Translations under genes and position numbers: made by a program
Assembly: GCF_000385135.1 (NCBI RefSeq)
Contig: NZ_ARQM01000005.1
Coordinates: forward strand, 1-64,000
Origin: Promicromonospora sukumoe 327MFSha3.1
GTDB taxonomy: Bacteria > Actinomycetota > Actinomycetes > Actinomycetales > Cellulomonadaceae
Direction: 5' to 3'
Length of the DNA: 64,000 nucleotides
Part shown: one piece after another, positions 8,637-42,542 of the stretch
How positions within the stretch are numbered: position 1 is the stretch's first letter
Layout of the letters: every line of letters starts with the position of its first letter
Notes under the pieces: generated by a model
Database searches by the model: none
What the model was told of the DNA's origin: nothing
Seen by the model: only the letters and a program-made list of their open reading frames with translations

Positions 8637-8894
8637 GTGGAAGGCGATGCGGGTGTACCGGGGGGTCATTGGCGGGACCTGGAGAGGTACCTACGCCCCG
8701 ACCCTGACGACCCGGGGTGTGACAAGGTCCGGGACCGGTTGGACGTCTACGCGGAGATGTCCGTGCAGGACCAGCGCCCCGCCCTGCGTCATCCCGAGAT
8801 CGCCCGACACCTGGGCGCATGCGTCGCATGCGGCCAGGACCTCGCAGGTATCGTCGCTCTTCTGGCCGATGAACCTGGAGCCACCGGGAGCTAG
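8637..8894 (+). CDS. Small zf-HC2/ZAS-like zinc-binding protein, possible anti-sigma factor
   Basis: 85 residues, starting at GTG 8637 directly after AGGGGGAG; an upstream in-frame ATG at 8571 lacks a ribosome site. Cys28, then 29 residues, His58, and an Hx3Cx2C motif HLGACVAC (Cys62, Cys65) match zinc-containing anti-sigma domains. A paralogue lies at 36600-36848 with identical Cx29Hx3Cx2C spacing and the shared phrase LDVYAE. There is no membrane segment, so it is soluble, as RsrA is. The nearest sigma gene is 3.4 kb away, so the pairing is inferred. Its end overlaps the tail of the convergent LAL gene by 4 bp. Confidence 0.72.
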   Translation: MEGDAGVPGGHWRDLERYLRPDPDDPGCDKVRDRLDVYAEMSVQDQRPALRHPEIARHLGACVACGQDLAGIVALLADEPGATGS

Positions 8895-11683
8895 GAGCCG
8901 ATCAGGAGGTCCTCGGTGTCCAGCACCACGCGGTCGAGCTGGCTGCGCGACGTGATGCCGAGCTTCGGGAAGACCTTCCGCAGGTGGTACTGGACGGTGT
9001 GCGCGCTGATGAACAGCCGCGTGGCGATCTCCCGGTTCGAGAGGCCGTCGCGCGCGAGCATCGCGATCTGCGCCTCCTGAGCGGTCAGCTGCTGGGAGAG
9101 GCCGGGCTGGTCACGGTGCGGAGCAGGACCACCCGCCGCCCGCAGCTCGCGTCTCGCCCGCTCGGCGAACGCCGCAACGCCCATGTCGTCAAACATGGAG
9201 CTCGCCTGGCGCAGGTGTTCGCGGGCCTCACTCCGGCGACGTTCGCGCCGCAGCCACTCTCCGTACAACAGGTGAGCCCGGGCCAGGTCGACGCGGAGGC
9301 GGGTCCTGCCGAGGCGGGTCAGGGACTCGCGGTACAGACGGTCCGCCGCCTCACCAGTGCTCACGAGAGCTCGTGTCCGTGCCAGCGCGCCACGCGCCCA
9401 GTCGGTTCCCGTCGCATGCGCCATCTCGGCGATCTTCTGGCAGGCGTCGTCGGCGATCACGGTCTCGCCGCACCGCAGGGCTGACTCGACCAGTTCCACC
9501 AGCACCCAGTTGAGCGCCGCGAGGTCCTTGTCGTACGCCGTGGCGCGGAGACCCGCCGCCATCGCTTCCTCGAACCGCCCCAGCCCGTTGTTCAGCAGTG
9601 CACTCGCGCCCTCCGCGAAAGCGACCCCGATCCCCTCACCACGACGACTGGCGTCCTCGACGGTGGCCTGGATCAAGGGCTCCGCCCCCTGGCGGGAGCC
9701 ACGGAGCGCGGCCAGCCACATCGCTCCGTAGGGCGTGAGGCCGCTACCGGTCGCCTCCGTCACGATCCGCTGTTCCTCGATCAGGGAAGCCGCGCCCGGC
9801 AGGTCACCCGCAAACAGCAGCATGTGGGCGCGGGCCGTCAGAGCCAAGGGGAGCTTGCTCAGTGCGCCCGTCGTCCGCACGAGCTCGACGTATCGAGAAG
9901 ACAGCGAGTCCCACGCCGCGTCATCCCAGAGGCGGATCGCCGTGATGCACGCGAGGTACATCAGCTGCATCTCCTCCTCGCTCGAGATGTCGCTGCCAAA
10001 CGTGGCGAGCGCCGACCGCAGAGCGGGCACCCCGGCCGCGTAGGACTCGCACAGGCCGCGAGCAGTGCCGTTGATGAGAAGGTCGAAACTGCCCGAACCG
10101 TGTCGACTCGTCGGTGCGGAACCGACAGCACGGGCCACCTCGGTCACGGTGCCGCCAGGACCTGCCAGGCGGTTCGCGAAGATCGCCGCTACCAGCGCAT
10201 CGGCATAGGTCGTGCGTGCTCGGTCCAGGTCCACGCGCTCGAACCGTCGCGCGGCGTCCAGGAGCAGTCGCGGGGCGTCGCCGCCGCGAGAGGTCACGAA
10301 AGACAGTTCTGCCCTCATCGTGTCGACGGTGGCCCGTTGGACATCATCAAGGCGACCCTGTCCTGTCAGGTCGATCAGCTCTCGAGCCTCGTCGAACGAG
10401 CCGGCGTCGAGCGCCACCTGAGCTGCAGCCAACCCGCGCCTCGCTCGTTCTCCCGGATCGACCGTCAGTACCACGGCCTGCCTCAGGAACGCGGCCGCGG
10501 CCCCCAACCCGCCTCGGGCCTGGGCTCGGGTCGCTGACCGTTCGAGCTCGGCGGCCAGGGCGGCATCCGGTCCGGCGGACCCGTGCGCCCGGTGCCATGC
10601 CCGTCGGTCCGGGTCGGTCCGTTCATCGGTGACATCGGCCAGGGCGCGGTGCGCGTCTCGACGATCCTGCGGACCGGCCGACCAGTACGCAGCGGAGCGG
10701 GCGAGCGGATGGCGGAACAGAACTCGGGCGCCGAACGCGGCCAGTCCGGCTTCCGTCGCCGGGGCGCTCGCATCCGGACCGATGCCCAGCCTCTGGGCGG
10801 CTCGCCAGACGAGGCCGGAGTCGCCGGTCGGATCGGCCGCCGCGAGCAGGAGCAGCGTCTGCGACTCGCGCGGGACCGCCTTGACCCGACGCCGGAAGGA
10901 TTCCTCGATGCTGCCGTCCAGCGCGGCCCCGACGATCCCGAAACCACCGGCAAGCTCCGCCAGGCTCAGGCCCTGGGGCAGCTCGAGCAGCGCGAGCGGA
11001 TTGCCTCTGGTCTCGGTCACGATCTGGTCGAGTACGGCTTCGTCGATCGGCCCGGGAAGTACGAGGCCGAGCAGTCTCCGCGCGGCTGCGTCGGTCAGTC
11101 CTTCGAGCCGAAGGCTGGGTAGGTGCTCCAGACCGCCGTCGGTCACGCGTGTGGCGAACACCAGTGCTATCGACTCCGCGGCCAGCCTGCGGGCGACAAA
11201 CGCCATGACCTGGGCAGTTTCCCGGTCGAGCCACTGCAGGTCGTCGACCAGGCAGACGAGCGGTCGTACCTCGGCCGCGATGGAAAGAAGACCGAGCACC
11301 GCGAGGCCGACAAGAAAGCGATCGGGCGGTGGACCCGCGCTCATCCCGAACACCGTACGTAGCGCCTCGCTCTGTGGCTCAGGGAGCCGGTCCAGGTGGC
11401 CGAGCACGGGGCTGCACAGCTGATGAAGGCCTGCGAAGGCGAGATCGACCTCTGACTGGACCCCGGCGCCGCGCACGACCAGGCACCCTGGGGCGTGTTC
11501 GGCGAGGTAGTCCAGCAGCGCGGACTTGCCGACGCCTGCCTCACCGTGGATGACCAGCACCCGGCTCTCGCCGGGCTGCTTGATGGCGTTCACCAGCTCG
11601 TCGAGTTCCTGGCACTCGGTTCGACGCCCGGTCAGGGGTGTGGTGTGCCACCGGCCTTCCGAGGGCTTTCGCCAGCGGTCCAT
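8891..11683 (-). CDS. LAL-type LuxR family regulator with AAA ATPase domain
   Basis: 930 residues from ATG 11683, which follows AGAAGGG; a GTG at 11704 is an alternative. Walker A GEAGVGKS lies at 47-54, Walker-B-like LVCLVDDLQWLD further on, then a long helical repeat region, and a LuxR helix-turn-helix at the C-terminus from LTAQEAQIAMLARDG to ISAHTVQYHLRKVFPKL. Related to the LAL at 4911. Two palindromes of the AAACTAGTTTG family lie 58 and 146 bp upstream of the start; the same paired sites precede the LacI gene at 28428-29474 and its operon, so this regulator is probably under that LacI repressor. Confidence 0.92.
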   Translation of the reverse strand: MDRWRKPSEGRWHTTPLTGRRTECQELDELVNAIKQPGESRVLVIHGEAGVGKSALLDYLAEHAPGCLVVRGAGVQSEVDLAFAGLHQLCSPVLGHLDRLPEPQSEALRTVFGMSAGPPPDRFLVGLAVLGLLSIAAEVRPLVCLVDDLQWLDRETAQVMAFVARRLAAESIALVFATRVTDGGLEHLPSLRLEGLTDAAARRLLGLVLPGPIDEAVLDQIVTETRGNPLALLELPQGLSLAELAGGFGIVGAALDGSIEESFRRRVKAVPRESQTLLLLAAADPTGDSGLVWRAAQRLGIGPDASAPATEAGLAAFGARVLFRHPLARSAAYWSAGPQDRRDAHRALADVTDERTDPDRRAWHRAHGSAGPDAALAAELERSATRAQARGGLGAAAAFLRQAVVLTVDPGERARRGLAAAQVALDAGSFDEARELIDLTGQGRLDDVQRATVDTMRAELSFVTSRGGDAPRLLLDAARRFERVDLDRARTTYADALVAAIFANRLAGPGGTVTEVARAVGSAPTSRHGSGSFDLLINGTARGLCESYAAGVPALRSALATFGSDISSEEEMQLMYLACITAIRLWDDAAWDSLSSRYVELVRTTGALSKLPLALTARAHMLLFAGDLPGAASLIEEQRIVTEATGSGLTPYGAMWLAALRGSRQGAEPLIQATVEDASRRGEGIGVAFAEGASALLNNGLGRFEEAMAAGLRATAYDKDLAALNWVLVELVESALRCGETVIADDACQKIAEMAHATGTDWARGALARTRALVSTGEAADRLYRESLTRLGRTRLRVDLARAHLLYGEWLRRERRRSEAREHLRQASSMFDDMGVAAFAERARRELRAAGGPAPHRDQPGLSQQLTAQEAQIAMLARDGLSNREIATRLFISAHTVQYHLRKVFPKLGITSRSQLDRVVLDTEDLLIGS

Positions 11684-11740
11684 AACAGCCCTTCTGCCTC
11701 GCACTAGGGGCGCTGCCAGCCGACGACTCGGCCTGCCTGC

Positions 11741-11754
11741 ACAAACCAGTTTGC
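11741..11754. promoter_or_regulatory. LacI-type operator, proximal to the LAL gene
   Basis: ACAAACCAGTTTGC, an imperfect palindrome of the AAACTAGTTTG family, 58 bp upstream of the LAL start at 11683. Five related sites occur in this window, always in pairs. Confidence 0.6.
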
Positions 11755-11828: not shown

Positions 11829-11842
11829 GCAAACTACTTTGC
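11829..11842. promoter_or_regulatory. LacI-type operator, distal to the LAL gene
   Basis: GCAAACTACTTTGC, one mismatch from a perfect palindrome, 88 bp beyond the proximal site. The paired spacing suggests looping or cooperative binding. Confidence 0.6.
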
Positions 11843-16461: not shown

Positions 16462-17195
16462 CGGAGTCGTGGTCCTTTCGGAGTGGCTGCCGTGCTGGTG
16501 TGACCGCGTGGGGGAAGGAAGCGTCGAGGCTCTGTTCGGCCCGCACCATGCGGTGTCGTGAGTATCTGGACAGAGGCGAGCGCGGCGTCGCAGAGGAGAG
16601 CGAGACCGGCTACGAGCAGCGCCCCGACGACTGCGGTGGCGTACTCGTGGCGAGCCAGACCTTCGATCAGGTAACGACCGAGTGCTCCCTGCGCGACGTA
16701 GCCGGCGATCGTCGCCGTGGCGACGGCCTGCAGGGTGGCCGAGCGGATGCCGCCCAGAACGAGTGGCATGGCCAGCGGCAGCTCGACCCGCCGTACGATC
16801 TGGAGCTCGCTGAACCCGCTTCCGCGGGCGCCGTCCACCGCGGTGCGTCCTGCGGCCTCGACCCCCGTGTAGGTTCCGGCGAGGATCGGTGGGATTGCCA
16901 GGAGCACCAGCACGGCGATGACGGGCGCGAGGTGCAGTCCGAACAGGAGAACGGCGAACAAGAGCAGTCCGAAGGTGGGCAGCGCACGTGCGGCTCCGGT
17001 GACTGTCGCGACGAGGTCGCGTCCACGACCGGTGTGGCCGGCGACGAGCCCGAGCGGCACCGCGACGATGGTTGCGCCGACGACGCCGGCCGCCGCGTAG
17101 AGAACGTGCTGCGTGAGGCGGGTCGCGATCCCATCAGGTCCGGGCCAGTTCTGGGGGTCGAAGATGAATTGGACCGCGTCGGTGATGTAGTTCAT
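16458..17195 (-). CDS. Betaine/choline-type ABC transporter permease (second)
   Basis: 245-residue integral membrane protein of the OpuBB/ProW type. At least five hydrophobic segments are visible, with an EAA-like cytoplasmic loop GARGSGFSELQIVRRVELPLA that contacts the ATPase. The C-terminal 30 residues are polar and proline/arginine rich. Its start overlaps the preceding permease stop, and its own stop overlaps the binding-protein start, so all three are translationally coupled. Confidence 0.88.
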   Translation of the reverse strand: MNYITDAVQFIFDPQNWPGPDGIATRLTQHVLYAAAGVVGATIVAVPLGLVAGHTGRGRDLVATVTGAARALPTFGLLLFAVLLFGLHLAPVIAVLVLLAIPPILAGTYTGVEAAGRTAVDGARGSGFSELQIVRRVELPLAMPLVLGGIRSATLQAVATATIAGYVAQGALGRYLIEGLARHEYATAVVGALLVAGLALLCDAALASVQILTTPHGAGRTEPRRFLPPRGHTSTAATPKGPRLR

Positions 17196-17845
17196 GTGGG
17201 GCTCGTTCCGCCCAGGTTGCGTATCCAGGGCAGAGCCGCACGACCGACCAGCACCAGGACGACGTCGAAGGAGAGCGCCAGGAGCAGGACTGCGACGATC
17301 CCCACCACGATCTCTGTCGGGTGGTTGCGCTGGAACCCGTTGGTGAAGAGGTAGCCCAGGCCGCCCTTGCCGATGAGTGCTCCGACACTCACCAGACTGA
17401 CCGTGCTGGCCGAGACCACGCGCAGGTTCGCGAGCAGGACCGGTCCCGCGAGCGGCAGCTGGACCTTCCAGAAGAGACCGGTGGGGGAGTAGCCCAGCGC
17501 CGTGGCTGATCTCGTGACGCCTGGCGAGAGGTGGTCGAATCCGTCCACGGCGCCGCGCAGCATGGTCGCGATCGCGTAGAGCGACATGGCAGCGATGACG
17601 TTGCGCTCATCGAGGACGCGCGTGTTCAGCACCAGCGGAAGAAGGACGAAGAGCGCCAGGGACGGGACCGTGAAGATGAGGCTGAACGACGTGAGCACGA
17701 TGAGCCGTGCTGCTCGGACACGATGGGCCAGCCACCCGAGAGATATCGATGCGAGCAGTCCGACGACGATCGGCACCGCGCTGAGGCGGGCGTGCTGCAG
17801 CGCAAGCTCCGTCACGAGGGTGAAGTTGTCCAGCAACCACGACAT
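17192..17845 (-). CDS. Betaine/choline-type ABC transporter permease (first)
   Basis: 217 residues, five to six hydrophobic helices, with the EAA-like loop ATALGYSPTGLFWKVQLPLA. It is the partner of the permease at 16458, and the two have the usual size for OpuB-type half-permeases. ATG 17845 overlaps the final base of the ATPase stop codon, and its TGA overlaps the next ATG. Confidence 0.88.
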   Translation of the reverse strand: MSWLLDNFTLVTELALQHARLSAVPIVVGLLASISLGWLAHRVRAARLIVLTSFSLIFTVPSLALFVLLPLVLNTRVLDERNVIAAMSLYAIATMLRGAVDGFDHLSPGVTRSATALGYSPTGLFWKVQLPLAGPVLLANLRVVSASTVSLVSVGALIGKGGLGYLFTNGFQRNHPTEIVVGIVAVLLLALSFDVVLVLVGRAALPWIRNLGGTSPT

Positions 17846-18747
17846 CAGCCCACCACCTGAGCGCCGCGTGACCTGGGCGTCGGGTCGGCGACCGGTAGGC
17901 GACCCTCGGGTGCCGCGATGACGCCGACGGGGTAGCCACCGGCGTCGACGACCACCCGATCGGCTCCGTCCACGGACCGCTGGGCGCTGATGGTGAGGCG
18001 CCGTTTGCCGCGGGCGCTGCCGATGAACGCCGCGACGAAGCTGTCTGCCGGGTCGGCAAGGATGTCTGCCGGAGTTCCGTGCTGTGCCACCTGCGCTCCC
18101 GGCCGCAGCACGACCACCTCGTCGCCGAGCAGGAACGCCTCGTCGATGTCATGGGTGACGAGCACGATCGTCTTGCGGAGCTCGTGCTGGAGACGCAGGG
18201 TCTCCTGCTGCAGGTCCGCCCGGACGATCGGGTCGACGGCTCCGAAGGGCTCGTCCATGAGCAGGATGTTGGGGTTCCCTGCCAACGCTCGGGCGACGGC
18301 GACACGCTGTCGTTGGCCGCCCGACAGCTGCGCCGGATACCGGTGGGCGAGCGCCGGGTCGAGCCCGACCACCGCCATGAGCTCACTCGCCCGCAGCCGT
18401 GCGGCGGCTCTGGTCGCACCGTTCAGGAGCGGTACCACCGAGATGTTGTCGATCACGCGACGGTGCGGCAGGAGCCCGGAGTCCTGCGGCACGTACCCGA
18501 TGCCGCGCCGTAGCCCGACAGGTCGTCGGCCGGCGATGTCCTCGCCGTCGATCTCGACCCGCCCGACGGTGGGGTCGACCATGCGGTTGATCATCCGCAG
18601 GAGCGTGGTCTTGCCGCAGCCGCTTGAGCCCACGAGCGCCGTGATCCTGCGTGGGGCGAGCCGCAGGCTGAAGTTGTCGACAGCAGGTGCGCCTCCGTCG
18701 TAGGTCTTGGTCACCCCGACGAACTCGATCACAGGAGCCACCGCCAC
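17845..18747 (-). CDS. Betaine/choline-type ABC transporter ATPase
   Basis: 300-residue OpuBA/ProV-like ATPase. Walker A GSSGCGKTT at about 39-47, Q-loop YVPQDSGLLPHR, signature LSGGQRQR, Walker B ILLMDEPFGAVD and the H-loop VLVTHD. The C-terminal 70 residues are short and show no clear CBS pair, so osmotic gating through CBS domains is not evident. The start is GTG 18747, inside a small upstream gene (18729-18902) that has the better ribosome site; coupling from that gene is likely. Confidence 0.88.
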   Translation of the reverse strand: MAVAPVIEFVGVTKTYDGGAPAVDNFSLRLAPRRITALVGSSGCGKTTLLRMINRMVDPTVGRVEIDGEDIAGRRPVGLRRGIGYVPQDSGLLPHRRVIDNISVVPLLNGATRAAARLRASELMAVVGLDPALAHRYPAQLSGGQRQRVAVARALAGNPNILLMDEPFGAVDPIVRADLQQETLRLQHELRKTIVLVTHDIDEAFLLGDEVVVLRPGAQVAQHGTPADILADPADSFVAAFIGSARGKRRLTISAQRSVDGADRVVVDAGGYPVGVIAAPEGRLPVADPTPRSRGAQVVG

Positions 18748-20816: not shown

Positions 20817-22619
20817 TCAGGCGTCGACGACCATGTCTTCTGTCGGTCGGGCGCAGCACAGCAGGGTCTGTCCGGCAGGCGGCGGTTCGAGCGGGATCGG
20901 TTGGTAGCTGGCGGCGCCAGAGATCACGGGGGTCGCGCAGGTGTGGCAGACCCCCGTCCGGCACGACCACCGTGTCGGGACTGCGCACGCCTCGGCGAGC
21001 TCGAGCAACGACCGGTCCCGCTCGCGCCAGCGCACGCTCAGGCCGCTCCGGGCGAAGGTGACCAGCGGCCCTGTGCCTAGTTCGGTCGGCTGGTGAGGTG
21101 ATACGACCCCGCCGTCGAGCACGCCCGGCGCGACGGGCGGCAGTGCCTCGAAGAGCTCGGAGCGGATCCGACCGGACGCCAGTCCGAGACGGCGGAGGGC
21201 GCCGCCGATCTCGGCCACGAATCCCGGCGGCCCGCAGAGGTATGCCCAGGCAGAGGACGGCAGGCCGAGACGGGCTAGGTCGTCGGCATCGGGACGGCCT
21301 CCGCGCACGGTCGCGGCGTCGTGGCCTGTCCCTCCCTGTTCGGACCGGGTGTAGAAGGTCATCGACCGGCTGCCCGGCAGCTGCTCGAGGAGCTGCTCGG
21401 CTTCCGCGGCGAAGACGTGGTCCGCTCGGCTGCGTGCGACGTGCAGCCACCAGATGGGCCGCTGACGTCCGCTCCGCACTGCCTCGCGAAGCATGGCGAT
21501 CATCGGTGTGACCCCGACGCCGGCCGAGGCAAGCAGTGCAGGCGATCCGTCCGGCCGCAGGGCGAAGGTGCCACGTGGAGCCGCGACATCGACCGTCGTG
21601 CCCACTCGCACGTGGTCGTGGAGGAAACGTCCTGCGCGACCATGAGCATCGCGTCGCACCGTGATGCGGTAGCGCCCCGTGCCCTCCAGCGCCGAGATCG
21701 AATAGCTGCGGACGAGCAGTGCTTCATCGTCCCCCTCGTGCAGGCGGAGCGTCAGGTACTGGCCGGGCAGGGCGCGTGCCACGGGTGTCTGCGGGTCCTC
21801 CAAGTGGTACGAGGTCACGGTGCTGGTCTCCTGGACCACCCGCCTGACGGTCATCGGCCGGAAGCCCGCCCACGCGGGTCCGGCGCCGGCCGGTGAGGGG
21901 CCGGCGACGGTCGCCGAGGACAGGTCGCCGTCGAGCAGGTCGCGGAACGACTGCTGCCAACCCGGGCTGAGGGCGCTGATCTCGACCGCTCGACGCAACG
22001 TCTCCGCACGCCTGCCGGGCAGGTAGAGCAGAGCGTCGACATCGGCGACCGACAGCTGGTTCCGGCCGGTACGGGTCTTGATGATGTGGTCGCCGGCGCT
22101 GACCTCGCCCTCGGTGATGACCCGCAGGTAGAAGCCGGGGCGACGATGGCTCACCAGAAGTGCGGGTAGCTCGGGGACACCGAGCCGCATCCCCACGCGG
22201 AAGCACGTCACCCGGGGCTGTGTCACCTCGAACTCCGCTGTTCCGATCCGGTACCGGTCGCCGATGCACACGTCGTCGTCAGCCAGCCCGGAGACGGTGA
22301 AGTTCTCACCGAAGCTGCCCGGGGTCAGGTCGTCACGCCCGAAGACCCGAGACCAGTGAGCGTAGGAGCCCCGCTGATAGACGAGGACCGCCCGCTGTTC
22401 ACCTCCGTGGCCTTCGGGGTCGCCCTGTCCGTCGCCGTCGACGTTGAGTCGGCGGACGGTGCGCGGGCCTGCGACCGGCGACTTGTGGATCCCGGTGTAG
22501 ACGGTGGTCCCGTTCCAGCGGACCGGTCGTGGCAGGCCGACGTTGACGGAGAGCAGCACCGGGGGACCGTCCTCCTCCACCGGAGGGGCGGACTGCGACG
22601 GCTCGGCGGTCTCGATCAT
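20817..22619 (-). CDS. MOSC domain fused to flavin reductase and 2Fe-2S ferredoxin
   Basis: 600-residue fusion. The N-terminal MOSC/YiiM-like part contains GSFGENFTVSGL and PRVTCFRVGMRLG; a ferredoxin-reductase part follows with the FAD motif RSYSIS and an NAD-binding ASAGVGVTPMIAML; the C-terminal 2Fe-2S domain has CRTGVCHTC (Cx4Cx2C) and a final Cys in LLCCARP. MOSC proteins use a Cys for sulfur or Moco transfer; YiiM reduces N-hydroxylated bases. The fusion supplies its own electron chain from NAD(P)H. ATG 22619 overlaps the stop of a 17-codon leader. Confidence 0.88.
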   Translation of the reverse strand: MIETAEPSQSAPPVEEDGPPVLLSVNVGLPRPVRWNGTTVYTGIHKSPVAGPRTVRRLNVDGDGQGDPEGHGGEQRAVLVYQRGSYAHWSRVFGRDDLTPGSFGENFTVSGLADDDVCIGDRYRIGTAEFEVTQPRVTCFRVGMRLGVPELPALLVSHRRPGFYLRVITEGEVSAGDHIIKTRTGRNQLSVADVDALLYLPGRRAETLRRAVEISALSPGWQQSFRDLLDGDLSSATVAGPSPAGAGPAWAGFRPMTVRRVVQETSTVTSYHLEDPQTPVARALPGQYLTLRLHEGDDEALLVRSYSISALEGTGRYRITVRRDAHGRAGRFLHDHVRVGTTVDVAAPRGTFALRPDGSPALLASAGVGVTPMIAMLREAVRSGRQRPIWWLHVARSRADHVFAAEAEQLLEQLPGSRSMTFYTRSEQGGTGHDAATVRGGRPDADDLARLGLPSSAWAYLCGPPGFVAEIGGALRRLGLASGRIRSELFEALPPVAPGVLDGGVVSPHQPTELGTGPLVTFARSGLSVRWRERDRSLLELAEACAVPTRWSCRTGVCHTCATPVISGAASYQPIPLEPPPAGQTLLCCARPTEDMVVDA

Positions 22620-22839: not shown

Positions 22840-22853
22840 GCAAAGTAGTTTGC
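22840..22853. promoter_or_regulatory. LacI-type operator, distal site of the operon
   Basis: GCAAAGTAGTTTGC, one mismatch from the AAACTAGTTTG palindrome, 119 bp upstream of ATG 22973. Confidence 0.65.
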
Positions 22854-22929: not shown

Positions 22930-22943
22930 ACAAACTGGTTTGC
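22930..22943. promoter_or_regulatory. LacI-type operator, proximal site of the operon
   Basis: ACAAACTGGTTTGC, 29 bp upstream of ATG 22973 and 90 bp from the distal copy. The position is typical for a repressor blocking the promoter or early elongation. Confidence 0.65.
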
Positions 22944-22972: not shown

Positions 22973-24280
22973 ATGCATGACGTCCTTGACCCCCGCGACC
23001 TGGTGCCGGACGAGGCGGAGCAACGGGCGCACAGCGGGTACGACGTCGAGGCGCTGGTCGAGCGCGCGCGCACGGCGGCGGCCGCCAACGACCTGACAGG
23101 TCTTGCCGAGATCGCGGCGGCACTGGAGCGCTCGAGGCTCGACCCCGGATGGGCCTACACCGAGCCGGACGACGAGGACGAGCTCCGTCGGACTGCCAGG
23201 TCGGTCACCGAACTTCCTGTCGATGCGGGGCGGCTTCGCGCCCGGCTGAAGGGAGCATGGCTCGGCCGCACTGTCGGCAACACCATGGGCAAGCCCGTTG
23301 AAGGGATGAACCGCCGCGAGGTACGGCTCTACCTGGAGGCGGGCGGCGCGTGGCCGCAGACCGGTTACGTGCCGCTCGTCGATCCGGTCCCCGCCGGGAT
23401 CCGCTGGATCCATCCTGACGGCCCGGTCTCGGCGCTCGGCACCTTCGCGGACGTCCCGCGCGACGACGACATCGACTGGACGATCCTCGGCCTCTTCATG
23501 CTGGAGCGCTACGGGCGGGACCTGGCGACCGAGGACGTCGCGCGCGAGTGGCTCGACCGGCTGCCTTTCACGCAGACGTTCACCGCAGAACGCGCGGCAT
23601 ACCGCAACCTTCTCCTCGGCAAGCCGATCCCCGAGACCGCGACCTTCGGCAACCCGTACCGCGAGTGGATCGGGGCGCTGATCCGAGCTGACATCTTCGG
23701 CTACGTCCACGCCGGTGACCCGGCGTCAGCTGCGGTCGCCGCCCTCGTCGACGCGAGGCTCAGCCACACGAGGAACGGCATCTACGGCGAGATGTGGGCG
23801 GCAGCGCTCGTCGCCGCGGCCCTCGCGACGAACGACGCGCGTGTCGCCATCTCCCGATCGCTGGGCGTGGTACCGACAGGATCGCGTCTCTACGAGGCCA
23901 TCCGAGGGATCCTCGACCTGCACGCCACGGGCATCGATCACGACGGGGCGCTGGACTGGATCGACGCCCGTCTCGGCCATTACAACTGGGTCGCCACGGT
24001 CAACAACGCGGCGATCATCGCAGCCGGCCTGTTGTGGGGGACCGGCTTCACGGACGCGGTGGCGAAGACGATCGCGGCAGGCGCCGACACCGACTCGACG
24101 GCGGCGACCACGGGCAGCGTCTACGGCGCGCTGCACGGCGCCGGGGCCGTCCCGTCCGAGCTCGTCGGCACGACCCACGTGCACGTGCGGAGCGCCGTAC
24201 GCGGCTTCGACCGCATCACCATCGACGAGCTGACCGACCGCACCCTCGCCCTCGTCGAGTCGTTCCGGAGCGACCGATGA
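22973..24280 (+). CDS. ADP-ribosylglycohydrolase family protein
   Basis: 435 residues from ATG 22973, eight bases after TAGGAG. A polar N-terminal extension of about 80 residues precedes the catalytic domain, which shows GAWLGRTVGNTMGKPVEG near 94-111, the metal motif PRDDDIDWT at 162-170 and the second metal motif AGADTDSTAATTGSVYG near the C-terminus. These Asp residues bind two magnesium ions in the DraG/ARH group, which cleaves N- or O-glycosidic ADP-ribose or related ribosides. It is the first gene of a LacI-controlled uptake operon and overlaps the nucleoside hydrolase start (ATGA), so a role in catabolism of an imported riboside is more likely than reversal of protein ADP-ribosylation. 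Confidence 0.88.
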   Translation: MHDVLDPRDLVPDEAEQRAHSGYDVEALVERARTAAAANDLTGLAEIAAALERSRLDPGWAYTEPDDEDELRRTARSVTELPVDAGRLRARLKGAWLGRTVGNTMGKPVEGMNRREVRLYLEAGGAWPQTGYVPLVDPVPAGIRWIHPDGPVSALGTFADVPRDDDIDWTILGLFMLERYGRDLATEDVAREWLDRLPFTQTFTAERAAYRNLLLGKPIPETATFGNPYREWIGALIRADIFGYVHAGDPASAAVAALVDARLSHTRNGIYGEMWAAALVAAALATNDARVAISRSLGVVPTGSRLYEAIRGILDLHATGIDHDGALDWIDARLGHYNWVATVNNAAIIAAGLLWGTGFTDAVAKTIAAGADTDSTAATTGSVYGALHGAGAVPSELVGTTHVHVRSAVRGFDRITIDELTDRTLALVESFRSDR

Positions 24281-25236
24281 GCGCGGTTCCGATCATCATC
24301 GATACCGACCCCGGGCTCGGTGAACCGGGGAGTGTCATCGACGACGGCCTCGCCATCGCCCTCGCGCTGGCGTCGCCGGAGCTCGATGTGCTCGGCCTGA
24401 CGGTGGTCAACGGAAACGTGGGCGTCGGCACCGGCTACACCCTGGCGCGCGACCTGCTCGAGCGGCTCGGGCGTCCCGACGTTCCGGTGCACCTGGGGGC
24501 GGCTGCTCCGCTCCGACAGGACATGGCGCATGTCTGGCGGGTCTTCGGCTCCGCGGCGCCGACCGGAACGGCCGGGGCGCCCGTCGGGATCGCTGCCGAC
24601 GCCGCGCAGTGGCTCGTCGAGCAGGTGTCGGCACGGCCGGGGGAGATCACCCTGGCGGCGATCGGTCCGCTCACCAACGTCGCCGAGGCGGTCCGGCTGG
24701 ATCCAGGGTTTGCTTCCAAGGTGAACGAGATAGTCGTCATGGCGGGCAACGCCACGGGGCCCGGGGATACCGGCGGCCGTGGAGCTGTCCCCGACTTCAA
24801 CGTCCTCGTCGACCCCGAGGCCGCCGACGTGGTGCTGCGTTCGGGAGCGAAGGTTCGCACGATCGGCGTCGACCAGACCAGCCGGGTGCGGCTGACCAGG
24901 CGGGACGCTGCGTCGCTGCGTGCGCGGGACTCCGGCAACGGGGTCGGTGCATGGCTCGGCGACCGCGTCGATGCGTGGATCGGGCAGGAGTCGCGTGCGG
25001 GATCCAGTGACAGCGAGCCGTTCTGCATGCTTCACGACCCCCTGGTGCTGGTGACGATCCTCCGCCCGGAACTCGGCCGGTTCGCCGAGGTAGAGGTCGT
25101 GGTCGACCTGGAGCAGGGCCGTCTGGTTCTGGCCGCAGGTGCCGGTGCGGACACCGTCGCGAGCATCGCGACAGCGGTCGACACCGACGTGCCGGCGGTG
25201 CACGCCTTGATCCTCGACCGGCTGGCCGCGCTGTAG
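24277..25236 (+). CDS. Nucleoside hydrolase (IUNH family)
   Basis: 319 residues. The N-terminal calcium-binding signature is IIIDTDPG, then an eight-residue insertion LGEPGSVI, then DDGLAIALAL; canonical members have DTDPGxDD without the gap. VVNGNV, AIGPLTNVAEA, VVMAGN and the EPFCMLHDPLVL motif with the catalytic His-Asp pair are all present. The enzyme splits the N-glycosidic bond of ribonucleosides. It is coupled to the ADP-ribosylglycohydrolase gene by ATGA. The insertion suggests a subfamily with altered specificity. Confidence 0.88.
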   Translation: MSAVPIIIDTDPGLGEPGSVIDDGLAIALALASPELDVLGLTVVNGNVGVGTGYTLARDLLERLGRPDVPVHLGAAAPLRQDMAHVWRVFGSAAPTGTAGAPVGIAADAAQWLVEQVSARPGEITLAAIGPLTNVAEAVRLDPGFASKVNEIVVMAGNATGPGDTGGRGAVPDFNVLVDPEAADVVLRSGAKVRTIGVDQTSRVRLTRRDAASLRARDSGNGVGAWLGDRVDAWIGQESRAGSSDSEPFCMLHDPLVLVTILRPELGRFAEVEVVVDLEQGRLVLAAGAGADTVASIATAVDTDVPAVHALILDRLAAL

Positions 25237-25261
25237 TCCCAACCAGAGACGGAGGGCAACG

Positions 25262-25372
25262 ATGTCCCACAGAGACACACTCACAGGGTCGAACACCGTT
25301 CCAGCCCTGCAGCACGCCGAGCACGCCGTCACACGGCTGCCACCGCACCACCGAGCCATGGAGTCATCGTGA
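25262..25372 (+). CDS. 36-residue leader ORF upstream of the binding protein gene
   Basis: ATG 25262 follows GGAGGG at 5 nt. The frame of 36 codons, His-rich, ends in TGA overlapping the GTG start of the lipoprotein gene at 25369. It may be a leader that couples or attenuates expression of the importer; it resembles nothing I know. Confidence 0.35.
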   Translation: MSHRDTLTGSNTVPALQHAEHAVTRLPPHHRAMESS

Positions 25373-26607
25373 GAAGGAACCTGAGCGGGACTGCTGTCAT
25401 GACCGCCGCCGCATCCGTCGCGGTGCTGCTCTCCGGGTGTGGCGGGTCGTCGGACGGGAAGGTCCAGATCGAGATCTTCCAGAGCAAGACCGAGGCCATC
25501 GCCACCGTCGACGAGCTGATCGCCGAGTTCGAGAGGACGCACCCGGACATCCGCGTCGAGCAGACCTCGGTGCAGGACTCTGTCACGGTTCTCAAGTCGC
25601 GCCTGGCCAAGGGGGACGTGCCTGACCTGATCTCGCTGAACGTCAGCGCGTACTACGACATGGCGCAGAGCGACCTGCTCGCCGACCTCTCGGACACCGA
25701 GGCATACCGGGCCGTCGACGACACCAAGGCCCTCGACTACCTCAAGGAGGCAGGTCAGACGGACCAGGCGCTCGCTGTGCCCTGGGCGACCAACGCGCAG
25801 CTGGTCCTCTACAACAGGGACCTGTTCGCTCAGTACGGGGTGACCCCGCCGGCCACGTGGGACGAGTTTCTCGACGTCGCCGAGACCGTCAAGGCCGCCG
25901 GAGGCGCGCCGTTCGTCTTCGGCTGGAAGGACACCTGGCCTCCCATGGCACTGGCGAACTCCGTCGTCGCGTCCGTGAAGCCGACCGACCTGCTGGCCCA
26001 GCTGCAGGAGGGCGAGACCACCTTCAGCGAACAGTCCGAGTGGGCCCTGGCCACGGAGAAGATGCTCGAGCTCAAGGACTACGCGCAGGCAGATGTCTGG
26101 GGTGCCGACTACGACACCGCCCTGGCTTCGTTCGCCGACGAGGACGCGGCGATGTACGTGGACGGAACGTGGGCCCTGCCCGGCATCGAGAAGGCCAACC
26201 CCGAGCTCGACGTGGGCGCTTTCGTGATGCCGAGCCCCGATCCGGACTTCGAGACCAAGGTCCCGGCAGGTCCGGACTCGTATCTGTCGGTCTACAAGGA
26301 CGGACCGCACACTCAGGAGGCGCAGGAGTTCCTGGACTACCTGCTGAGCGCACCCGCCCAGAAGCTGTTCGCCGACCAGCAGGCCCTGTTCTCCGTGCGG
26401 GACGACGTGCGGTCCGCGGACCCGCTCATGGCCGGCCTGAAGACCGACTGGATCGATGCCGGGAGGACGGCCACGTACTCGGACGGATTCTTCACCGGCG
26501 GTACGAACTACCAGGCCATCACCTGGGAGTACCTGAGCTCCGGAGACCGGTCCGCGTATCTCGCAGCGCTGGACGACGACTTCGCGGCGTACGGCCTCAA
26601 GAAGTAG
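25369..26607 (+). CDS. Sugar/nucleoside-type ABC transporter binding lipoprotein
   Basis: 412 residues; signal with lipobox VLLSGCGGS (Cys near 24). Family-1 extracellular solute-binding protein: IEIFQSKTEAIATVDELIAEFERTHPDIRV at the mature start, PWATNAQLVLYNRDLF in the centre, and AAMYVDGTWALPGIE. GTG 25369 has GGAG five bases upstream. Two permeases follow and no ATPase. With the two glycosidases upstream, the ligand may be a riboside or an oligosaccharide; this is inferred from context. Confidence 0.88.
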   Translation: MRRNLSGTAVMTAAASVAVLLSGCGGSSDGKVQIEIFQSKTEAIATVDELIAEFERTHPDIRVEQTSVQDSVTVLKSRLAKGDVPDLISLNVSAYYDMAQSDLLADLSDTEAYRAVDDTKALDYLKEAGQTDQALAVPWATNAQLVLYNRDLFAQYGVTPPATWDEFLDVAETVKAAGGAPFVFGWKDTWPPMALANSVVASVKPTDLLAQLQEGETTFSEQSEWALATEKMLELKDYAQADVWGADYDTALASFADEDAAMYVDGTWALPGIEKANPELDVGAFVMPSPDPDFETKVPAGPDSYLSVYKDGPHTQEAQEFLDYLLSAPAQKLFADQQALFSVRDDVRSADPLMAGLKTDWIDAGRTATYSDGFFTGGTNYQAITWEYLSSGDRSAYLAALDDDFAAYGLKK

Positions 26608-26631
26608 TCCACTGAAAGGCTCGGCGTCCCG

Positions 26632-27531
26632 ATGTCGTCCGGCCGCTCTCGGAAAGGCAGACGGCGAATGCGAAACGGCTCGAGAGCATTTCTGATCATG
26701 GCGCTGCCGGCTGCGGCACTGTTCTTCGTCTTCCATACCGTGCCGGCGCTCCAGGGTCTGTTCTACAGCTTCACGGACAGTCGCGGGTACGGCAGCTGGG
26801 ACTTCGTCGGTCTCGACAACTACGTCCGTCTGTTCCAGGACGGAGACGTCCTGGACAGCTACGTGTTCACCCTCGGCTTCGCCGTGGTCTCCACGTTCGC
26901 CGCGAACATCATCAGCATCCTGCTCGCGCTGGCCCTGAGCGCGAACATCAGGTTCCGCTCGTTCATGCGCAGCGTGTACTTCCTTCCCGCGATCCTCTCG
27001 GTGATCGTGGTGAGCTATATCTTCAACACGATCTTCTCGACCGGCGTTCCGCAGATCGGCAAGGCGCTCGGTATCGACTGGCTGTCGACGAACATCCTCG
27101 GCTCGCCCGACACCGCCTGGATCGGGGTGGTGATCGTCACCGTGTGGCGGTACTGCTCGACCATCACCGTCATCTACATCGCCGGGCTACAGACGGTGCC
27201 GGAGGACGTCGTCGAAGCCGCGCACCTCGACGGTGCCTCCGCCTGGCGCCGCTTCTGGTCCATCACGGTCCCGCTCATCGCGCCGTTCTTCACCATCAAC
27301 ATCCTGCTGAGCTTCAAGGACTTCGTGCAGGTCTTCGACCAGATCGTCGCCCTGACCGAGGGCGGTCCGGGCAACGCGACCCAGTCGATCTCCTTCCTGA
27401 TCTACCGGGCAGGATTCGCCGGCGGCGAGTTCGGGTACCAATCGGCCAACGCCGTCGTCTACTTCGTCATCATCGCTGTCCTGTCTGCCTTCCAGATCCG
27501 ATTCCATCGCCGGAGGGAGACCGCGGCATGA
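26632..27531 (+). CDS. ABC sugar permease, MalF/UgpA-like
   Basis: 299 residues (287 if ATG 26668 is used, which follows GGAAAGG). Six transmembrane segments and the EAA loop EAAHLDGASAWRRFWSITVPL for ATPase docking. GLDNYVRLF near the first periplasmic loop is typical of the MalF group. The stop codon overlaps the next ATG. Confidence 0.9.
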   Translation: MSSGRSRKGRRRMRNGSRAFLIMALPAAALFFVFHTVPALQGLFYSFTDSRGYGSWDFVGLDNYVRLFQDGDVLDSYVFTLGFAVVSTFAANIISILLALALSANIRFRSFMRSVYFLPAILSVIVVSYIFNTIFSTGVPQIGKALGIDWLSTNILGSPDTAWIGVVIVTVWRYCSTITVIYIAGLQTVPEDVVEAAHLDGASAWRRFWSITVPLIAPFFTINILLSFKDFVQVFDQIVALTEGGPGNATQSISFLIYRAGFAGGEFGYQSANAVVYFVIIAVLSAFQIRFHRRRETAA

Positions 27532-28361
27532 ACGACTCACGCGCGCAGAGCATCTCGAGATGGCTGCTGACCGCCCTGCTGGCGATCGGGTCCCTGACGA
27601 TCGCCATCCCGCTCTACTTCACCGTCGTCACGGCACTCAAGTCGCCGAGCGAGCTGCGCGGCAACCTGTGGGCGCCCCCGCAGGACCCGGCGTGGAGCAA
27701 CTTCTCGGACGCGATCGAGACGACCGGCTTCTTCCAGGCCCTGGGCAACAGCCTGCTCGTGACCGTGCTGTCGATCGTCCTCGTCGTCGTCACGAACTCC
27801 CTCGTCGGTTATGCGATCGCACGGAACCTGCACAAGAGGCTCTACCGCGGGCTGTTCGTGTACTTCCTCACCGCGCTGTTCATCCCGTTCCCGATCGTGA
27901 TGCTGCCGCTGGTCAAGGAGATGGCATTCCTGGGGCTCGGCAACCTCACCGGTCTGGTCATCGTCTATGTCGTGTACAACCTGTCGTTCAACGTGCTGCT
28001 GTACGTCGGCTACATGAGCACGGTCCCGGTCTCGCTCGAGGAAGCGGCGATGCTCGACGGCGCGGGTCCCTTCGCGACCTTCCGGCACGTGATCTTCCCG
28101 TTGCTGACCCCGGTCAACGCCACGGTGGCGATCCTCACCGGCCTCTGGGTGTGGAACGACTTCATGCTCCCGCTCGTGCTGCTCAGCGACCAGGCGCAGT
28201 TCACACTGCCCCTCGTGCAGAACGTGTTCCAGGGGCGGTTCACGACTCAGTACAACCTGGCGTTCTCGTCATACATCCTCGCGCTGACCCCGATGGTGCT
28301 CATCTACCTCGTCTTCCAGCGGTGGATCATCGGTGGGGTCATGCATGGAGCGATCAAGTAG
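27528..28361 (+). CDS. ABC sugar permease, MalG/UgpE-like
   Basis: 277 residues with six membrane segments; EAA loop EEAAMLDGAGPFATFRHVIF and the C-terminal QRWIIGGVMHGAIK found in MalG-type subunits. ATG overlaps the stop of the partner permease, with CGGAGGGAG before it. It is the last gene of the LacI-controlled operon; no ATPase is encoded. Confidence 0.9.
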   Translation: MNDSRAQSISRWLLTALLAIGSLTIAIPLYFTVVTALKSPSELRGNLWAPPQDPAWSNFSDAIETTGFFQALGNSLLVTVLSIVLVVVTNSLVGYAIARNLHKRLYRGLFVYFLTALFIPFPIVMLPLVKEMAFLGLGNLTGLVIVYVVYNLSFNVLLYVGYMSTVPVSLEEAAMLDGAGPFATFRHVIFPLLTPVNATVAILTGLWVWNDFMLPLVLLSDQAQFTLPLVQNVFQGRFTTQYNLAFSSYILALTPMVLIYLVFQRWIIGGVMHGAIK

Positions 28362-28427: not shown

Positions 28428-29474
28428 CTACATGGACTCTCGGACGATGAGCTGATGCTGGACCAGCACATGCCTGGGTGGTGACGCAAGGTCGCCACGG
28501 TCCTCGATGCGGTGCACGAGCAGATCTCCGGCGGCCCGTCCGATCTCCTCGGCCGGAATGCGTACGGTGGTCAGCGCGGGGCTCACCAGGCTTGCGGCCT
28601 CGATGTCATCCACACCGACGACGGCGATGTCGTCCGGGATGGACAGGCCGGCCTGTCGGACGGCGTCGATCGCGCCGATGGCCATGAGGTCGTTCGCGCA
28701 GAACACGGCGGTGGGTCGCTTCTCGAGCGCCAGGAGCGTGCGCATCGCCCCGAACCCGCCCGAGCGGGTCCAGTCGCCTTCCACGACGTACTCGTCGGGC
28801 AGGGGCAGCCCGTGCCTGACGAGCGCCGCGTGGAAGCCGCGCTGACGCGGACCCCCGGGCGCGTGCTCCTGCGGGCCGCTGATCGTGGCGATCGCGGTGT
28901 GCCCCATGCTCACGAAGCGATCCACGACGTCGCCTGCGATGCGGGTGTCGTCCGCGGTGACCCAGTCGAGGTCGAGCTTCGACGCGGAGGCGCCGACCAC
29001 GACGACAGGGATGTTGGCCCGCAGGACCTCCGCGATGTCACCGTCTACATCACTGACTGCGACGACCATGCCGTCGACCCGGCGGTGGATGGCCGCCTGG
29101 ACGGAGGTCGTGGTCGTCGCTGGGCCGGCATCGCCGTCAAACAGCATCACGACATGGCCGCTCTGCTGCACCGATCGCTGCAGGCCTCGAGCAAGTGCGG
29201 GATAGAACGGGTTGGTGATGTCCTGCGCGAGCAGTGCGACGGTGCGGCCACCACTCTTGTTGAGCGCCTGTGCGAAGAAGTTGGGCTGAAAGCCCAGGTC
29301 GCCCATGACCTTCTCGACGTGCTTGCGCGTCGCGGCCGCTACCGGGCGTTTGCCCGACAGCACGTGCGAGACGGTGGTCTTGCTGACCTTGGCGGCCTGC
29401 GCGACGTCTTCGATGGTTACGGTGGCGCTTCGCCTGCGCGGCGAAGGTCGCTGCGGGCTGCGGCTGGACGCCAT
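28428..29474 (-). CDS. LacI family transcriptional regulator of the ADP-ribosylglycohydrolase operon
   Basis: 348 residues. The N-terminal LacI helix-turn-helix reads TIEDVAQAAKVSKTTVSHVLSG, with the hinge helix near ALNKSGGRT; then a periplasmic-binding-protein-like effector domain with NPFYPALARGLQ and FCANDLMAIGAI. Two palindromes of the AAACTAGTTTG family precede its own gene, so autoregulation is likely; the same paired sites precede the operon at 22973 and the LAL gene at 11683. It is convergent with the operon. The effector is probably a sugar released by the operon's hydrolases. Confidence 0.92.
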   Translation of the reverse strand: MASSRSPQRPSPRRRSATVTIEDVAQAAKVSKTTVSHVLSGKRPVAAATRKHVEKVMGDLGFQPNFFAQALNKSGGRTVALLAQDITNPFYPALARGLQRSVQQSGHVVMLFDGDAGPATTTTSVQAAIHRRVDGMVVAVSDVDGDIAEVLRANIPVVVVGASASKLDLDWVTADDTRIAGDVVDRFVSMGHTAIATISGPQEHAPGGPRQRGFHAALVRHGLPLPDEYVVEGDWTRSGGFGAMRTLLALEKRPTAVFCANDLMAIGAIDAVRQAGLSIPDDIAVVGVDDIEAASLVSPALTTVRIPAEEIGRAAGDLLVHRIEDRGDLASPPRHVLVQHQLIVRESM

Positions 29475-29500: not shown

Positions 29501-29514
29501 TTAAACTAGTTTGC
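29501..29514. promoter_or_regulatory. LacI-type operator, proximal to the LacI gene
   Basis: TTAAACTAGTTTGC contains the perfect core AAACTAGTTT, 26 bp upstream of the LacI start at 29474. Confidence 0.65.
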
Positions 29515-29568: not shown

Positions 29569-29582
29569 CCAAACTAATTTGC
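29569..29582. promoter_or_regulatory. LacI-type operator, distal to the LacI gene
   Basis: CCAAACTAATTTGC, 68 bp beyond the proximal site, completing the third operator pair. Confidence 0.6.
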
Positions 29583-40990: not shown

Positions 40991-41099
40991 GACCAGGACA
41001 GTGGCCGCGAGAGGTTGACGCCGTTCGAGCGGAAGTGGTGATGGACAGGGTTTTGCCCCGATGCAATACTCGGGCACCTCAACGGCGAGAGGACCCGCA

Positions 41100-42542
41100 A
41101 TGTCGCGCTTCCGTCGGATGGCTCTCGCGGTCACACTGCTGATCGCCGCCACCCCGTTCACGAGCAGTGCCGCCGTGCCACAGGAGGACCCCATACGCCC
41201 CGAAGCCGTGGTGAACACCTTCCGCAATCCCGTGAACCCGAGCGCCGACCCGTCGGTGATCTTCCACGAGGGCACCTACTACGCCGCGACCACCCGAGGC
41301 GACCGCATCAGCATCTGGCGCTCGCCGAGTATCGCGACGCTCCTGGCGGCTCCCGAGGAAGTCGTCTGGCGCGACTCCGACCCGACCCGCAACACCCAGA
41401 TGTGGGCGCCGGCGTTCCGGCATGTCGGTGATCGCTGGTACATCTACTACACGGCCTCGGACGGCGTGGACAGCAACCACCGGATGTACGTGCTGGAGTC
41501 GGCCGGGAACAGCCCCATGGGCCCGTACTCGTTCAAGGCCAAGATCGCCGACTTCGGCGAGTACGCGATCGACGGCGAGCCCATCACCCACGACGGCCAG
41601 GACTACTTCGTCTGGACGGGCCCGGGCCGCGGCCAAGGCGGACCCGCGCAGCTCTACATCGCGCGCATGACCAACCCCTGGACGACGACCGGCGGCAGGG
41701 TCGCGATCCCGGCGGACGGCGGCTGCTCCGAGGTCCGGGAGGGCCCGACACCTCTGTACCGCAACGGACGCACGTTCCTGACCTACTCCACCTGCGACAC
41801 AGGCAAGCCGGACTACCAGCTGTGGATGAAGAGCATCGCGAACGGTGCCGACCCGATGGTGGCCGGCAACTGGGTGCAGCACGCCGGGCCGGTCTTCTCC
41901 CGGAACGACGCGACCGGTGTCTGGGGGCCCGGGCACCACTCGTTCTTCCGGTCTCCCGACGGTTCCGAGGACTGGATCGCCTACCACGGCAAGAACACCA
42001 GCACGAACACCTACTCGTTCCGGACGACGCGGGTCCAGCGCTTCACCTGGAACGCCGACGGTACGCCGAACCTCGGCCGCCCCCTGGCCGCCGGGGCGAC
42101 CCAGACGCTACCGTCCGGTGACCCCGGTGCGGCCACCCGGGCGATCAACGACTTCGACACCGGCACCGGTCTGTGGCAGGTGCAGTACGCGGGCTCCTGG
42201 CAGTCCGGCTCGGGCTGTGGCGTGCAGTGCTTCTGGGGCAACGACCACTGGAGCGGCGCCACGAACGCCACCGCGACCATCAGGTTCAACGGCACCCAGG
42301 TCGCACTGCTGAGCGTGCGGGACCGCGGCAACGGCATAGCCGCCATCTCGATCGACGGCGGCCCCGAACAGCGTGTCGATCTCTACAGCGACATCCGCGT
42401 CGGAGAGCAGCTGAACTACCTCAGTCCGGTGCTCTCGCCCGGGGAGCACACGCTGCGTGTCCGGGTGACCGGTGAGCGCAACGCCGCGTCGACGGGCTCG
42501 GTCGTCAGCATGGACCGGATCGAGGTCTACGGCGTCGGCTGA
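41100..42542 (+). CDS. Secreted GH43-like glycosidase with C-terminal beta-sandwich module
   Basis: 480 residues from ATG 41100 after GAGAGGA. A signal peptide (MSRFRRMALAVTLLIAATPF, then SSAA) is followed by a five-bladed propeller: NPVNPSADPSVIFHEGTYYAAT contains the catalytic-base Asp, AIDGEPITHDGQDYFVWTGPG the likely acid Glu, and GPGHHSFFRSPDGSEDWIAYHG closes the domain. From about residue 345 a separate module of some 130 residues (FDTGTGLWQVQYAGSW to RIEVYG) looks like a carbohydrate-binding beta-sandwich. Probably an extracellular arabinanase or arabinofuranosidase. A strong terminator follows. Confidence 0.85.
   Translation: MSRFRRMALAVTLLIAATPFTSSAAVPQEDPIRPEAVVNTFRNPVNPSADPSVIFHEGTYYAATTRGDRISIWRSPSIATLLAAPEEVVWRDSDPTRNTQMWAPAFRHVGDRWYIYYTASDGVDSNHRMYVLESAGNSPMGPYSFKAKIADFGEYAIDGEPITHDGQDYFVWTGPGRGQGGPAQLYIARMTNPWTTTGGRVAIPADGGCSEVREGPTPLYRNGRTFLTYSTCDTGKPDYQLWMKSIANGADPMVAGNWVQHAGPVFSRNDATGVWGPGHHSFFRSPDGSEDWIAYHGKNTSTNTYSFRTTRVQRFTWNADGTPNLGRPLAAGATQTLPSGDPGAATRAINDFDTGTGLWQVQYAGSWQSGSGCGVQCFWGNDHWSGATNATATIRFNGTQVALLSVRDRGNGIAAISIDGGPEQRVDLYSDIRVGEQLNYLSPVLSPGEHTLRVRVTGERNAASTGSVVSMDRIEVYGVG

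Follow-up and report, generated by a model that had tools for sequence, protein, structure and literature searches.

The E. coli yegTUV operon is controlled by the GntR repressor GgaR/YegW and has been linked to ADP-glucose and glycogen (PMC10819704). In Bifidobacterium, LacI-family RbsR proteins have been predicted to control genes for nucleoside hydrolase, ribokinase and transporters in the RbsR2 and RbsR3 regulons (PMC4746261). A ribose-scavenging locus of Bacteroides thetaiotaomicron, BT2803-2809, combines ribokinase, nucleoside hydrolase and transporters (PMC10434189; PMC12596196). Many bacterial proteins are called ADP-ribosylglycohydrolase by family alone. The exact gene set considered here, that is LacI, DraG-family hydrolase, nucleoside hydrolase (NH) and CUT1 importer, was not found described in the open literature, so the original prediction that no pathway of exactly this make-up had been described holds to that extent, while partial precedents do exist.

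The window, which is the whole stretch of DNA analysed here, comprises 64,000 nt of Promicromonospora sukumoe 327MFSha3.1 (GCF_000385135.1, contig NZ_ARQM01000005.1, positions 1-64,000, forward strand). One apparent transcription unit occupies 22973-28361, where the five predicted genes were all confirmed in place and intact on the + strand. They encode a DraG/ADP-ribosylglycohydrolase-family hydrolase of 435 aa (22973-24280; PF03747, E 1e-44), an NH-family enzyme with a 7-residue insert in its Ca-binding fingerprint (24277-25236; PF01156, E 1e-57), a lipoprotein substrate-binding protein (25369-26607) and two ABC permeases, the first of MalF/UgpA type (26632-27531; PF00528, UgpA-like) and the second of MalG type (27528-28361; PF00528). 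The genes are joined, as had been claimed: ATGA overlaps connect the DraG and NH genes as well as the two permease genes, the binding-protein gene is separated by 132 bp from the NH gene and by 24 bp from the first permease gene, and no terminator-like site was found on the + strand between the operon genes. A 36-codon ORF (25262-25372, +) between the NH and binding-protein genes, with a GTGA overlap at the start codon of the latter, may be a translational-coupling leader. The convergent lacI gene lies downstream, just outside the operon (28428-29474, - strand). Among other genes of the window are one for a 600-aa fusion of MOSC, YiiM 3-alpha, FAD/NAD oxidoreductase and 2Fe-2S ferredoxin domains (20817-22619, -) and, 3' of a polyphosphate glucokinase gene, one for a family 43 glycoside hydrolase whose N terminus resembles a signal peptide (41061-42542, +).

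The binding lipoprotein belongs to SBP_bac_1 (Pfam), and its nearest solved chains are sugar-binding proteins, e.g. 4zs9. Together with the two BPD_transp_1 permeases it constitutes an importer of the CUT1 class. No MalK/UgpC-type ATPase is encoded within the operon; a UgpC/MalK-type one, encoded at 1-1137 on the - strand (NF008653, 468 bits against a cut-off of 432), is a candidate for the shared energiser of this ATPase-less importer.

The repressor is a LacI-family protein (PF00356/PF13377) whose nearest solved structure is RbsR, the ribose operon repressor (9ny7, 214 bits). RbsR is also its best equivalog match, though at 237.5 bits it does not reach the cut-off of 531. The palindrome GCAAACTAGTTTGC occurs at six sites in the window with at most three mismatches, against 0.36 expected, and these sites stand in pairs before the DraG operon, before lacI and before a LuxR/AAA regulator gene. 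The operator-like palindromes of the operon are GCAAAGTAGTTTGC (22840-22853), about 120 bp 5' of the DraG gene and with one mismatch to GCAAACTAGTTTGC, and ACAAACTGGTTTGC (22930-22943), about 30 bp 5' of that gene. The palindrome scan placed the two before lacI at 29501-29514, indicating putative autoregulation, and 29569-29582, and the remaining two at 11741-11754 and 11829-11842. A scan of 79 related loci (1.34 Mb) that allowed up to two mismatches recovered the site exactly seven times, once in each of seven LacI-DraG-NH loci and directly at lacI; none was found elsewhere in these 1.34 Mb. The recognition helix VSKTTVSH is identical in the window LacI and in the seven sister-locus repressors, two of which were compared over their length and share 57 and 62% identity with it. 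Conserved palindromes are present both at lacI and at the target promoter, as in LacI-family regulation. Because the operators recur at lacI in seven loci together with a shared recognition helix, the predicted control by LacI, originally a guess, is well supported, better than any other part of the finding. The promoter region of the LuxR/AAA (LAL-type) regulator gene (8891-11704, -) shows partial similarity to the one of the DraG operon, and this gene may be a second target of LacI. Elsewhere in the 6.25-Mb genome, paired palindromes were found only at C11:56228-56258, directly before a membrane-protein/ABC operon. This pair was rejected as a regulon member, because the operon is unrelated and the sites are arranged differently; the adjacent palindromes, which have the same core, probably serve another repressor.

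The DraG-like protein scores 153.4 bits against PF03747 (gathering cut-off 26.2), and its model (pLDDT 95.7) aligns with MJ1187 and with ARH3 (Z 33), confirming the fold. At 17-19% identity it has in common with DraG, ARH3 and MJ1187 this fold and the Glu/Asp ligands of the binuclear metal site. The claim of intact metal motifs is nearly correct: E110, D165, D166, D372 and D374 are retained, but the Thr of TDD is D164 here and the last Thr, that of DxDT, is S375. DDD replaces TDD throughout the subfamily, in which the last Thr is Ser or another residue. The window enzyme further differs from these three proteins by an N-terminal extension of about 85 aa, which is a trait of its subfamily and the start region of which is kept in relatives, and by invariant motifs of its own subfamily, NPYREWIGALIR and TAERAAYRN. 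Its family name, fold and most of the DraG/ARH metal ligands would be consistent with an enzyme that strips ADP-ribose from protein and only incidentally resides in a sugar operon. However, its scores fall far below the cut-offs for protein ADP-ribosyl hydrolases (26.2 bits against 337 for the DraG equivalog TIGR02662; 22.8 against 490 for NF041672), its gene is coupled to importer and NH genes by operon structure and by LacI with its operator in several genera, and at least three of the six PF03747 genes in its own genome are located inside sugar-ABC/LacI clusters. Protein de-ADP-ribosylation, already set aside in the original prediction, is unlikely on this evidence, and an incidental location of such an enzyme seems very improbable indeed. 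The other five PF03747 genes are on contig C10 (479959, 481419, 918039, 2099444 and 2100520), two pairs of them in other sugar-ABC/LacI clusters; at the 2.1-Mb C10 locus at least one copy has a degenerate metal motif. These observations suggest that the actinobacterial DraG subfamily is catabolic and part of sugar-uptake loci, and the name ADP-ribosylglycohydrolase would therefore be misleading for it.

The second enzyme scores 196.6 bits against PF01156 (cut-off 34.2), and its model (pLDDT 82.9) gives Z 37 to plant NRh1 and Z 30-37 to solved NHs, confirming the group I NH fold. With group I enzymes such as plant NRh, RihA and IU-NH it shares this fold and the C-terminal His-Asp, as H255-D256, comprising the His before the last Ca-binding Asp, is invariant. 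It is unlike them in three respects: the DxDxxxDD fingerprint is interrupted (DTDPGLGEPGSVIDD) by the 7-residue insert, which each of the nine aligned NH relatives from DraG loci shares; the E-x-N ribose motif has Asp in place of Glu, the partner of the ribose-binding Asn, both here and in the seven sister-locus relatives; and the beta3-alpha3 His is not conserved. The equivalog cut-offs of RihA, RihC and UriH were not reached either (119/433, 130.9/382 and 113/450 bits, respectively). With its interrupted fingerprint the enzyme is classed as a divergent subfamily rather than as a typical nucleosidase, and the DraG-like partner, with DDD for TDD, is likewise a divergent subfamily.

The order LacI-DraG-NH-binding protein-permease-permease recurs in seven loci from Microbacterium, Leifsonia, Naasia and one further actinobacterial MAG, six of which are closed by a secreted beta-helix protein. 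In Streptomyces the arrangement is LacI-binding protein-permease-permease-DraG-ribokinase-NH-GH13. Types that lack the NH gene include LacI-DraG-binding protein-permease-permease-ribokinase, as on an annotated Mycolicibacterium arabiense plasmid, ROK-binding protein-permease-permease-DraG, and LacI-permease-permease-DraG2-DraG-ribokinase, which is present on contig C10 of the own genome and resembles an annotated Deinococcus plasmid cluster. The tree did not resolve the branching of the window DraG protein among the types with and without NH. The gene set exceeds chance, since nine NH genes were counted in the 858 kb that lie up to about 6 kb from DraG relatives versus one in the 479 kb outside, and 20 ribokinase genes versus two; 20 of 51 full-flank relatives have none of the searched partners, and distant DraG relatives (Chloroflexi, Clostridia and others) are often without such partners. 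The seven sister loci have a transporter that is no orthologue of the window transporter, so the specificity of the latter may differ; its match is the orthologous Streptomyces transporter, at 45-63% identity. The operon thus appears to be a mosaic, with regulator and enzymes from one lineage and importer from another. No orthologous transporter that could serve as a substrate clue was found in 346 genomes of the class at E 1e-85. Taken together, locus conservation, NH enrichment and operators support the predicted LacI-controlled operon for uptake and hydrolysis of a riboside-like compound, and the locus is real and conserved and very probably LacI-regulated.

The absence of a kinase or phosphatase was correctly noted for the operon, which has no ribokinase gene, but as a feature of the pathway it is not supported, since ribokinase-like genes are present in six of the seven sister operons (absent in L078). 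Such a kinase gene also adjoins members of the DraG subfamily on Mycolicibacterium and Deinococcus plasmids, in Streptomyces and in the paralogous cluster of the own genome; this genome has two TIGR02152-like genes, both below cut-off, away from the operon. All ribokinase matches fall below the TIGR02152 cut-off, though TIGR02152 is their best family. No glycoside hydrolase is encoded within the window operon. The DraG operons of 12 related loci adjoin a GH36 melibiase gene and that of Streptomyces a GH13 gene, while each of the ten loci with paired DraG genes encodes a TIM-barrel-like/FGE protein. The beta-helix protein of the sister operons has a C-terminal domain in common with endo-alpha-D-arabinanase and an N-terminal stretch in common with lacto-N-biosidase. 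As these glycoside hydrolase neighbours vary by lineage, they do not name a single compound. The operon-closing beta-helix protein, encoded for instance at 16465-18306 of locus L053 and in five sister loci, belongs to no Pfam family and is a candidate for an unclassified glycan-active enzyme; a search for its orthologue in the own genome gave no match, a weak negative. Always together with DraG2-DraG clusters, L004 (9386-11353) and nine related loci encode a protein of 655 aa whose C-terminal domain is of the FGE-sulfatase type; the remainder of the protein has no Pfam match and reads like a TIM-barrel glycosidase.

An alternative in line with the original prediction is that the substrate is a nucleoside, whether ordinary or modified, or a riboside derived from NAD, from which the two hydrolases would free bases and ribose. 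Both enzyme families do act on ribosyl bonds, Bifidobacterium is predicted to have LacI regulons of the RbsR type that comprise ribokinase, RihC and nucleoside transporters (PMC4746261), and ADP-ribose is bound by the NH-fold protein XopQ (reviewed in PMC8910321). Nevertheless, the importer is of the CUT1 class and not of a known nucleoside importer class, the NH-family enzyme scores far under the RihA, RihC and UriH cut-offs, and glycoside hydrolases are recurrent neighbours of the DraG subfamily; a substrate derived specifically from NAD, ADP-ribose or nucleosides is not supported, and importer and neighbours point towards a carbohydrate glycoside. Genes for a PRPP synthetase-like protein, nicotinamide phosphoribosyltransferase and an NrtR-like protein follow directly 3' of DraG in Brachybacterium (L060, 11570-14597). 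They would fit salvage of nucleobases or NAD, but the link was rejected as they stand behind DraG in this one relative only. A nucleoside or NAD product as substrate is accordingly regarded as doubtful. Still less likely is a substrate free of ribose, such as a galactoside, a glucoside or another oligosaccharide, for which the DraG and NH relatives would have shifted to another furanose or cis-diol sugar. The GH36 and GH13 partners, oligosaccharide binders as the closest matches of the binding protein and the active-site divergence (DDD for TDD in the DraG-like enzyme, the insert in the NH) would agree with such a shift, whereas ribose is indicated independently by a ribokinase-like kinase, by the likeness of LacI to RbsR and by the two families of ribosyl hydrolases.

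Our preference, held tentatively as a good possibility short of a probable one, is that LacI represses an operon for the catabolism of a glycoside or oligosaccharide with ribofuranosyl residues. We infer such a compound rather than a nucleoside or NAD product because of the CUT1 importer and the GH36, GH13, TIM-barrel-like and beta-helix neighbours of the DraG subfamily; it is expected to contain ribose because this carbohydrate context coincides with a ribokinase-like kinase and a repressor nearest to RbsR. Release of ribose by the operon enzymes is likely. Ribose or the imported glycoside, as the probable inducer, would detach LacI from the palindromes in front of its own gene and of the operon, and the compound would enter by the CUT1 importer, energised by the shared UgpC/MalK-type ATPase. 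The DraG-family enzyme would then cut a ribofuranosyl bond, presumably an alpha bond as DraG and ARH3 do, and the NH-family enzyme the other, beta-ribosidic bond. A ribokinase would phosphorylate the ribose; most relatives carry its gene within the operon, the own genome at other places. Alpha bonds are the targets of DraG/ARH enzymes and beta bonds those of NH enzymes, and the pair could therefore clear both anomers. That members of the two superfamilies were recruited as an anomer-specific (alpha, beta) ribofuranosidase pair of carbohydrate-utilisation loci, acting on ribofuranose-containing glycans or glycosides, is a more speculative proposal, possible but on the doubtful side. To our knowledge, no described pathway covers such a route by a ribofuranosidase pair. 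If both enzymes were ribofuranosidases, they would provide a hydrolytic route for ribofuranosyl glycosides of a kind we know of nowhere else, and LacI with its known operator would offer a simple reporter for finding the natural substrate.

Compared with known systems, yegTUV resembles the window operon in combining a transporter and an ADP-ribosylglycohydrolase-family protein, in yegTUV together with a PfkB kinase, under a dedicated repressor, with enzyme functions that are putative in both. It differs in having a homologue of MFS nucleoside symporters instead of a CUT1 ABC importer, a GntR instead of a LacI repressor, and no nucleoside hydrolase. For the Bifidobacterium RbsR2 and RbsR3 regulons no DraG-family enzyme is named, and the predicted transporters are nucleoside transporters, not CUT1. 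BT2803-2809 of Bacteroides thetaiotaomicron presumably also includes an ADP-ribosylglycohydrolase-like enzyme; this locus relies on SusCD-type outer-membrane uptake and another regulator. The window operon is a variant of already known sugar/riboside-utilisation loci and is itself new.
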